Positions 15,317 through 17,997 of a stretch of 64,000 nt of DNA are shown here, piece after piece; positions within the stretch are counted from its first letter, which is position 1, and the number at the start of each line of letters is the position of its first letter. The DNA comes from a virus: positions 1-64,000 of the IMG/VR virus record IMGVR_UViG_3300028025_004842. One strand, written 5' to 3'. The notes below the pieces were generated by a model. That model worked only from the letters and a program-made list of their open reading frames with translations. It did no database searches and had not been told where the DNA came from. A program made the position numbers and the translations under genes.

Positions 15317-15589
15317 ATGAAACAACTAATCACAATGGCAGCGCTATTGACTGCCCTAACATCATGCGAAAAGGATTGTTACAATTTCAAGTGTTCACAG
15401 AACGTAATTACATACGATAGGTTCGGAACTGAATCATCTAACAGCGCTGGTTCTGTTGAGATAGACAAATGTGATTTCACCAAAAAGGACGCTAAGAACT
15501 TTATCAAGTCTATGAATGGTAAAACGACAACGAATGTTGGAAATATTAAAACAACTGTTTCTACGAGTTGTAATATCGTAACACAATAA
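15317..15589 (+). CDS. Small lipoprotein, paralog of the one at 6809
   Basis: 90 residues. The signal MKQLITMAALLTALTSC has an L-T-S-C lipobox (Cys17). The mature part contains CYNF and CSQN early, a KSMNGKTTT region and a Ser/Thr/Cys end (TTVSTSCN), the same arrangement as the lipoprotein at 6809-7099. The overall similarity is weak but in register. It is the last gene before the structured RNA gap at 15590-15719. Confidence 0.65.
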   Translation: MKQLITMAALLTALTSCEKDCYNFKCSQNVITYDRFGTESSNSAGSVEIDKCDFTKKDAKNFIKSMNGKTTTNVGNIKTTVSTSCNIVTQ

Positions 15590-15593
15590 TATT

Positions 15594-15601
15594 TATATTT
15601 G
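15594..15601 (+). promoter_or_regulatory. -7 box for the structured RNA
   Basis: TATATTTG matches TAnnTTTG. A weak TTG lies 23 bases upstream (15568-15570). Start of transcription a few bases downstream would begin the RNA at the first hairpin (about 15606). Confidence 0.5.
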
Positions 15602-15605
15602 CAAT

Positions 15606-15712
15606 GTTCAGAGGTAGTATCCTGAATTAATGTAAAACATTGTCGCCCTATGGTGACTGCGAGGTGGAGATCATATCAAAGCCGATACTACCGCAGTCCT
15701 CATAGGGTTTTT
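15606..15712 (+). ncRNA. Structured small RNA with loop-loop pairing and terminator
   Basis: No ORF of real size fills 15590-15719. Three hairpins can be drawn: TTCAG/CTGAA (15607-15611/15622-15626) with loop AGGTAGTATC; AATGT/ACATT (15629-15633/15637-15641); and CCCTATGgtGACTGCG/CGCAGTCctCATAGGG (15646-15661/15692-15707), followed by TTTTTT. The first loop (GGTAGTATC, 15613-15621) is exactly complementary over nine bases to GATACTACC (15684-15692) in the loop of the third hairpin, so a kissing-loop or pseudoknot is predicted. The promoter-like box upstream and the terminator make a complete transcription unit of about 105 nt. Alternatively a 7-bp outer stem CAATGTT/AACATTG (15602-15608/15636-15642) forms. 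I recognise no known RNA family. Confidence 0.65.
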
Positions 15713-15719
15713 TATTGTT

Positions 15720-15917
15720 ATGAATAAGAAACAAAATGAATTGATTAAGAAGTATTGCTTGTTTAAAATATATGCAAGCCATTGCGCTAACGATAATCCC
15801 GAAGATGCTCGTGAGGAGATATATGAAGAACTTATAAATGTATCTAAGGTTCGATTGCTAGAAAAGGCAATAAGATATGATGAGGCATCACGACATAATC
15901 CATTTAAAAATGTTTGA
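15720..15917 (+). CDS. Small unknown protein
   Basis: 65 residues, start ATG directly after the RNA terminator. Helical, charged (NKKQNELIKKYCLFK, EDAREEIYEELINVSKVR). It overlaps the next gene by 8 bases if that gene starts at 15910. No family recognised. Confidence 0.5.
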   Translation: MNKKQNELIKKYCLFKIYASHCANDNPEDAREEIYEELINVSKVRLLEKAIRYDEASRHNPFKNV

Positions 15918-16602
15918 TTACTTCAACGGATTTTGGAAATGGGTTAGCGATAATCCTGATAAGGTTGACCCTTCTCTTTGCGCTGTGTATTTCGCTTTAT
16001 TAAACAGAGCAAATAAGACTGGGTGGAAAGATAGCTTTGCTATTATCCTAATCGACCTTCAAGAAGATTGTGGTATATGTTCTAGGACAACAATGCTAAA
16101 AGTTATTTCTAAATTAGAGGAGTATGGGTTCGTTGAAACAATTTCAAAGACGAATAATCAATACAAGAATAGAGTTATACGCCTTCCATTAAATGGAAAG
16201 CACGTGGAAAGCACTTGGATACCACTTGAAAAGCACGTGGAAACTACTTGGACACATAATAAGACTATTAAAGACAATAAAGAATATAAAGATAATACTG
16301 CTAAAGCAGATAAATCAAATTTCAAAAATTGGACTAAGGAAGAATTTCAACAAGACATAACTAAGAATCATGGCAATCATGACCACGATATGATTAAAGC
16401 ATTTTATAAATATTGGAAAGAGTTGGATGGTAAAGGTAAAATGAGATTTCAATTAGAGAAAACTTGGGAAACAAATCTTCGATTAGCAAGATGGAAGAAA
16501 TTCAATTCCTCCTCAAATCTTTCTTTTGAAAAAAATAAGAATGGGGCGGCGGCCTCGCCGAACACATTCAGTCGCGCATCAAACGGATTACAAATCAAAT
16601 AA
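15910..16602 (+). CDS. Winged-helix replication protein (replisome organiser type)
   Basis: 230 residues from ATG 15910, which overlaps the previous stop; the upstream in-frame ATG at 15877 is less likely. The first about 95 residues read like a phage replication initiator/organiser winged helix: MFDYFNGFWKWVSDNPDKV, then LNRANKTGWKDSFAIILIDL, then SRTTMLKVISKLEEYGFVE with a recognition helix and wing. The rest is charged and probably disordered, with a helix near 160-205. It sits directly before DnaB, so loading the helicase at the origin is the likely job. A regulator is the alternative. Confidence 0.65.
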   Translation: MFDYFNGFWKWVSDNPDKVDPSLCAVYFALLNRANKTGWKDSFAIILIDLQEDCGICSRTTMLKVISKLEEYGFVETISKTNNQYKNRVIRLPLNGKHVESTWIPLEKHVETTWTHNKTIKDNKEYKDNTAKADKSNFKNWTKEEFQQDITKNHGNHDHDMIKAFYKYWKELDGKGKMRFQLEKTWETNLRLARWKKFNSSSNLSFEKNKNGAAASPNTFSRASNGLQIK

Positions 16603-16605
16603 GCT

Positions 16606-17997
16606 ATGAGAAACGTAACAACAGAACAAGCCATCCTTGGCGTACTACTATCACCAGGAGATCACTTCCGTGATATCATCCCACAATTACACGTCAATCT
16701 ATTCACTGACGAATTCTGTATCAAAGTGTTCAGAGTGATAGAAGCGCTGTTTAAAGAAGGGAAAACACCCAACCTGATTAACCTAATCACTAAGGGTAAA
16801 GCAATGGATTTAATATCACAATTGGATATCCATAAGATTACCGTATGGACTACAGCCATCACATACAACGAACCCGTTAACGAATACGTTGATGAGTTGA
16901 AGGATGAACATATCAAACGGCAGATAGCATTAGTCATTGCACAAGAATCTATGGGGCTATTGGAGAATAAGTCGGGGTCTGATATTGCTATGAGCATTGG
17001 TAATAAGATGACAGAACTCCTCGACACGAATTCCAGCAGCGACAATCTAATCACGCTTGCAGAACTAACGAGCGATGAGAGGGAATTATACTACAAGCGT
17101 TCAGAACTATACAAGAGTGGTAAGACATCGGGAATGGAAACGGGTGTTGGTAGCATTAACAAATACACGGGCGGATGGCAGAACGAATTTATCATCATTG
17201 CTGCTCGTCCAAGTATGGGTAAGACGGCATTAGCGTTGTTTCATGGCGTTAAGAGTGGGCAGCCTGGTATATACTTCAACCTAGAGATGAACAAGAGCCA
17301 ACTAACGCAGCGATTGATTCTACAGCATACTGACAACATCGTTGGTTCGCATCTTCGTGATGGAACACTAACGAAGGATGAGATGATGGAGTTTGAGCGT
17401 ACCATTGGTAAGATTGAGAATGTTCCATTTATGATTTACGACAAGGCACGCTGCGGTGTACATCAGGCAGTACGTGTAATGAAACAACAGCATCGCAAGG
17501 GGAAATGTAATTGGGCAATCATTGATTACTTGCAGTTGATGACGTTGGAAGGTAACAAGGGGAACAACAGAGAGAATGAGATTGCTGAGATTAGTAGGAT
17601 ACTACGTTCAGCGCAGAAGGAATTAAACATTCCCATCATTGCATTGGCGCAGTTGAATAGAGATTGTGAGAAGCGTCCCGATAAGAAACCTTTGCTATCT
17701 GACCTACGTGAATCGGGTTCATTAGAACAAGATGCTGATACAGTAGCATTCATCTATCGCCCTGCGTACTATGGATTACAGAAGGATGATGGAACACCAT
17801 ACACCAACGAGATATTCTATCTATTCGAGAAGCACAGACACGGAGCAACGGGGTCGGTGGAGTTCAGACACAACTACAACCTAAGTCAGTTCTTCGCTAT
17901 CAATGACTACGCAACACCACTACCTGTACCAACAGCACCAACTAACTTCAGTAACTTTACCGATGCATCTTGGATGAGAGATGACGATTTAATATAA
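16606..17997 (+). CDS. dnaB: Replicative DNA helicase (DnaB-like)
   Basis: 463 residues, typical DnaB length. The N-terminal domain starts RNVTTEQAILGVLLSPGDHF and KVFRVIEALFKEGKTPNLI; the RecA-like core has Walker A AARPSMGKTALAL at about residues 199-210, Walker B around WAIIDYLQLM (about 304-313), LSDLRESGSLEQDAD and the FLFEKHRHG-type arginine-finger region near 405-410. The hexameric helicase unwinds the fork in the 5'-3' direction. Start follows the winged-helix gene after three bases, suggesting one transcript. Confidence 0.95.
   Translation: MRNVTTEQAILGVLLSPGDHFRDIIPQLHVNLFTDEFCIKVFRVIEALFKEGKTPNLINLITKGKAMDLISQLDIHKITVWTTAITYNEPVNEYVDELKDEHIKRQIALVIAQESMGLLENKSGSDIAMSIGNKMTELLDTNSSSDNLITLAELTSDERELYYKRSELYKSGKTSGMETGVGSINKYTGGWQNEFIIIAARPSMGKTALALFHGVKSGQPGIYFNLEMNKSQLTQRLILQHTDNIVGSHLRDGTLTKDEMMEFERTIGKIENVPFMIYDKARCGVHQAVRVMKQQHRKGKCNWAIIDYLQLMTLEGNKGNNRENEIAEISRILRSAQKELNIPIIALAQLNRDCEKRPDKKPLLSDLRESGSLEQDADTVAFIYRPAYYGLQKDDGTPYTNEIFYLFEKHRHGATGSVEFRHNYNLSQFFAINDYATPLPVPTAPTNFSNFTDASWMRDDDLI

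Follow-up and report, generated by a model that had tools for sequence, protein, structure and literature searches.

Does the ORF-free gap that precedes the replication genes of this phage produce an RNA of its own and, if so, what would that RNA do? The window, the whole 64,000-nucleotide stretch analyzed here (from a virus record of 65,655 bases), had been described in a first-pass annotation as holding at this place a candidate new structured RNA with a 9-bp kissing loop, in which GGTAGTATC (15613-15621) and GATACTACC (15684-15692) would pair as the loops of two hairpins, and with a promoter and a terminator belonging to it. Compared with its dinucleotide shuffles, the strand folds better by 4.3 SD (z -4.3), none of 200 shuffles equaling it, and the 9-mer has no second occurrence within the window. 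The parts of the element and the genes behind it are collected in Table 1; the P1 loop, L1, reads A followed by GGTAGTATC, and P3 is nested inside P2.

Table 1. Elements of the RNA and the genes that follow it, in window coordinates
Feature	Position	Strand	Remarks
Structured RNA, ~110 nt	gap 15590-15719	+	5' of replication genes
Bacteroidota-type -7 promoter element (predicted), TATATTTG	15594..15601	+	consensus TAnnTTTG
P1 hairpin	15606..15627	+	arms 15606-15611 / 15622-15627, loop L1 15612-15621
Pseudoknot strand 1, GTAGTATC, in L1	15614..15621	+	Watson-Crick in homologs
A-rich linker P1-P2	15628..15645	+	AAAA stretch kept in most homologs
Alternative hairpin AH (GTCGCC/GGTGAC)	15642..15657	+	mutually exclusive with P2
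P2 5' arm, terminator stem	15646..15661	+	covariation
P3 small hairpin	15663..15683	+	outer 15663-15665 / 15681-15683, inner 15669-15671 / 15675-15677
Pseudoknot strand 2, GATACTAC	15684..15691	+	directly between P3 and P2 3' arm
P2 3' arm	15692..15707	+	sequence and covariation
U-tract TTTTTT, terminator-like	15708..15713	+	directly after P2
First ORF downstream of the RNA, 65 aa	15720..15917	+	no Pfam/PHROG match
O-like replication initiator	15907..16602	+	phrog_18020 replication initiation O-like, E 1.6e-06
DnaB-like replicative helicase	16606..17997	+	PF03796, E 3e-73; phrog_19

Related RNAs in uncultivated phages

With a search pattern consisting of the two 9-mers alone, the RNA was located on contigs on which relatives of the window's DnaB helicase are encoded as well; this pattern's hits at L003, L005, L007, L009, L013, L015, and L022 are chance matches. 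A covariance model built without the pseudoknot matched almost all helicase loci whose upstream DNA is long enough, at E values from 1e-28 to 6e-10, once per locus and on the helicase strand. A second pattern, combining P1, its loop, and only a short constant segment from the apex of P2, returned 85 viral stretches, and among the 75 sources of this pattern that were searched with the covariance model, 74 matched with E values no higher than 1e-7. The remaining one, a Labrenzia stretch (L179) that was the single match in genome_contigs, is a coincidence, having neither a covariance-model match nor the fold. Searching with a third pattern, built from the P2 apex and the pseudoknot strand, yielded 71 stretches. 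The 138 loci comprise 87 distinct RNAs, to which this last pattern adds 22 further distinct sequences, and with the covariance model the RNA is present in more than 100 distinct uncultivated-phage sequences. One 62-kb contig (IMGVR_UViG_3300037493_001386) has two helicase loci, each with its own RNA copy, representing either two joined phages or a duplication.

The RNA-bearing phages are known here from metagenomes alone. A genome_contigs pattern search covering one P1 type found no true RNA in cellular genomes, BLASTN with three representative RNAs found no real relative among isolated phages, and the RNA is absent from two isolated Riemerella phages that have related initiator genes. Rfam 15 (4227 models) gave no match at gathering score in the whole window or in 15 homolog loci, and at E values up to 5 it gave only chance matches lying outside the RNA element; no such element is named in the limited collection of literature searched. 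By these comparisons the RNA is a family without known relative, outside Rfam, which agrees with the earlier impression that it resembles no known RNA family.

Covariation and the pseudoknot

Fold statistics were computed on 49 distinct homolog sequences and 35 pairs. Across P1, P2, P3, and the pseudoknot, 98.6% of cells are paired, while shuffles reach 84.4% and slid controls 29-42%, and double compensatory changes occur in 25 of the 35 pairs; none of 500 shuffles reached the observed values. P1 is paired in 97.4% of cells, with double compensatory changes in all seven aligned pairs, and the 14 aligned pairs of P2 are paired in 99.9%, nine of them with double compensatory changes. The outer 3 bp of P3 are paired in 100% of cells and covary, and in some homologs this helix reaches about 6 bp. 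The eight pairs of the pseudoknot are Watson-Crick in 392 of 392 cells, across 15 loop variants and without a single G-U. Thus, the proposed covariance search with related phages yielded compensatory changes in the stems as well as in the helix between loop and strand, and together with the absence of an Rfam match these support the claim of a new structured RNA. The pairing levels and the double changes likewise bear out the view that the two segments do not match by chance.

The architecture of that pairing differs from the one first proposed. The putative ninth pair, G15613-C15692, is not kept in eight of the 49 distinct homologs; G15661-C15692 is paired in all 49, and C15692 is therefore assigned to P2. 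Hence, the supposed 9-bp kissing loop is a real pairing, but as a pseudoknot of 8 bp, with C15692 closing P2. Similarly, GGTAGTATC does lie in a hairpin loop, that of P1, but GATACTACC is the strand that links P3 to the 3' arm of P2. The annotated almost perfect 16-base stem followed by TTTTTT is also present, with two 16-nt arms and the T run in place, except that it is interrupted by a constant 2x2 internal loop.

Blind tests gave concordant results from both sides of the pseudoknot. Loops picked without viewing the partner had the partner in 54 of 54 cases (mismatched partners, 0 of 2,294), and partners picked without viewing the loop had the loop in 22 of 22; in all 21 sequences that could be judged, the P1 stem measured 6 bp or more. 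In P1-P3 there are 65 G-U cells as opposed to six A-C cells, and this excess indicates selection on the + strand as RNA. Collectively, the covariation lets us regard the fold as genuine with very high confidence. At small backbone distances the pseudoknot pairs change faster than P1 and P2 (0.19 of pairs versus 0.08 and 0.009). These shifts in sequence under perfect Watson-Crick pairing provide natural variants for testing whether a pseudoknot adjacent to a terminator controls transcription, and the same variants suit testing whether the variable loops are identity tags between phages.

Among known folds, the Pistol ribozyme also has a P1 hairpin loop that pairs with a strand in its P2-P3 region. 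In the phage RNA, however, P3 and the pseudoknot strand come in the opposite order, P2 forms a long terminator stem, and there is no Rfam match.

Predicted signals and the replication genes downstream

The motif TAnnTTWR is found at the same place in all 92 distinct records, starting 9-12 nt before the first base of the covariance model, compared with 2% of background 16-mers, and 40 of the 92 have exactly TAnnTTTG, which is the consensus of the Bacteroidota -7 promoter element (PMC7366714). The window has TATATTTG at this position, and the motif, at near-fixed spacing across the records, matches the TAnnTTTG expected at the -7 region of a Bacteroidota sigma-ABfr promoter; no conserved -33 TTTG was seen upstream of the RNA. 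At the other end, the T fraction is 0.89-1.00 at four consecutive positions after the P2 stem, followed by A-rich sequence (91 records), so that P2 and its U-rich positions have the sequence form of an intrinsic terminator, a G+C-rich hairpin with a U run. As sequence signals, the promoter and terminator ascribed to the element are therefore both present, and their activity is predicted on that basis. The promoter motif also points to Bacteroidota as the probable hosts, and the RNA adds a well-supported family outside Rfam for phages with these inferred hosts.

The terminator-like stem lies very close to the genes that follow. The start codon at 15720 is 12 nt past the P2 stem in the window, and in most loci the first start codon is usually 9-21 nt (about 13) from the stem, in front of unrelated ORFs. 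Because this gap is too small for another promoter, the first gene would be transcribed through the RNA. The families of this first ORF include DUF6291, O-like initiators, C5 cytosine methylase, a Mom-like protein (a match just below the curated cut-off), and short unknowns. Further downstream, a DnaB helicase is found 0.6-2.9 kb from the RNA and on the same strand in 122 of 138 loci, and a minority has other modules in its place. In a helicase relative without the RNA (L033), the DUF6291 gene lies immediately next to the upstream gene, which fits the expectation for an optional regulatory leader.

Several loci differ in their gene content. Five of them (L139, L146, L158, L162, and L141) have related RNAs and upstream flanks, followed by a DUF6291 protein and a conserved 312-316-aa protein, with no DnaB; the replication modules downstream of the leader are here exchanged as a mosaic. 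At another (L131, 2339-6809), the RNA precedes an HNH-like protein, a 537-aa DEAD-type helicase-like protein, and a 716-aa primase/helicase-like protein, names assigned by eye from sequence. In the window, four imperfect CAC(G/T)TGGA-like repeats with a spacing of exactly 11 bp lie inside the O-like gene (16194-16255), an arrangement as in lambda-type origins. A 90-aa ORF directly upstream of the RNA (15317-15589) has a lipoprotein-like start (MKQLITMAALLTALTSCEKD) and no family match. The GC skew changes sign at about 20000, and the predominant coding strand changes near 20.4 kb, at the divide between the early region and the rest.

What the RNA may do

Genomic context favors the option, already raised in the first-pass annotation, of a riboswitch-like leader of the replication genes; an RNA decoy, proposed alongside it, gained no support. 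In our preferred reading, to which we give a probability of roughly one half, the RNA would be a phage-specific, promoter-proximal transcription attenuator leader of the replication operon that also releases an RNA of ~110 nt. Its position suggests that the RNA structure may set the onset of replication in the phages that bear it. Attenuators of the P4 leader/CI RNA and pT181 types control transcription of phage and plasmid replication operons, and they share with this RNA a structured 5' leader ahead of replication genes, with a promoter and a terminator stem (both predicted here) and, if AH does compete with P2, alternative pairing. In contrast to those systems, there is no sequence or structure match, a separate antisense gene is not seen here, and a covarying pseudoknot joins the first loop to a strand beside the terminator arm. 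Against a single regulated product stand the several unrelated families of downstream genes and the few loci without DnaB, and no ligand, protein, or antisense partner of the RNA was found.

The element might instead be a stand-alone, trans-acting phage sRNA of ~110 nt with a promoter and terminator of its own, next to replication genes only through genome packing; it could, for example, serve in antisense control or self-recognition, with the variable 8-mers conferring specificity between phages. We consider this reading rather unlikely. The two signals bracket exactly one structured unit, the first downstream genes are unrelated, and the fast change of the pseudoknot, without G-U intermediates, would suit such an RNA. 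However, a free-standing sRNA gene has no need of a start codon about 13 nt past the stem, as found in most loci, and a second target site for the 8-mers is not enriched within phages: they are hardly more frequent elsewhere in these genomes (0.28 versus 0.18 per 10 kb). The c4 antisense RNA (RF01695; PMC2864571) is likewise a short phage RNA with functional complementary stretches, but c4 belongs to Proteobacteria and the phages of these bacteria, it is complementary to a separate target whereas the complementarity here is internal, and no Rfam match links the two. It is also conceivable, though doubtful, that the leader of ~110 nt, once terminated, works in trans for self-recognition, with its P1 loop pairing to the pseudoknot strand of a nascent like leader and limiting replication of its own kind; the changing but strictly Watson-Crick 8-mers would then define incompatibility groups of co-infecting phages.

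Other readings assign the RNA to polymerase modification, origin function, or packaging. In a put-like RNA, the nascent structure would bind the transcribing RNA polymerase, which would then resist pausing or termination within the early operon. Like HK022 putL, which is situated shortly after an early promoter (PMC9378689), the present RNA immediately follows the promoter-like motif at the head of the replication operon, but put is ~70 nt with two stem-loops acting on RNA polymerase, and no match to its sequence or fold was found. Since the phage RNA instead has a pseudoknot, a start codon right after it, and a 3' end formed by a terminator-like stem and U-tract, we judge this reading improbable. 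A role at the replication origin, either of an RNA that primes or activates it or of a cruciform in the DNA there, would fit the adjoining initiator and helicase genes and, about 480 bp farther on within the O-like gene, the iteron-like repeats with their 11-bp spacing. The G-U/A-C asymmetry, however, indicates RNA on one strand, and the element also stands upstream of quite different replication modules (L131) and is absent from the relative L033, leaving an origin role still less probable. Phi29 pRNA is a phage RNA of about 110-120 nt in which two complementary elements join separate molecules into a ring through 4-bp contacts. The present RNA likewise has two complementary single-stranded elements within ~110 nt, and by geometric inference its fully intramolecular form looks strained, the single A15662 having to span the pseudoknot between P2 and P3. 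Nevertheless, its fold differs, its contacts are 8 bp, it lacks an Rfam match, and it sits with replication rather than packaging genes; a packaging role is thus very improbable.

In the attenuator leader that we favor, transcription would start at the base of P1, which would fold first, followed by the local hairpin AH and P3. The emerging strand 15684-15691 would then pair with the P1 loop to form the pseudoknot. Once the last strand is out, P2 could displace AH, and P2 with the U-tract would terminate transcription and release the ~110-nt RNA; if P2 were delayed or blocked, the polymerase would continue through to the initiator and helicase genes. How much replication protein is made would depend on which of the two states prevails, AH with the pseudoknot or P2. 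In this scheme the activity of promoter and terminator is conjectural, as are the switch between AH and P2 and its driver.

AH is formed from the 5' strand of P2 and the linker. Besides the window's version, AGCCC/GGGCT and CCGCC/GGCGG occur in other homologs. Over 26 distinct segments, the energy of AH averages -7.0 kcal/mol, compared with -2.7 when only the non-P2 letters are shuffled (the energy was also computed on a wider segment set). Covariation of AH within classes is slight, and the hairpin partly follows from the base composition of P2. The conservation of a hairpin that excludes P2 is suggestive of a two-state switch. In folding of the growing transcript, AH is seen in partial transcripts of 55-95 nt, and P2 wins at lengths of at least 100 nt.
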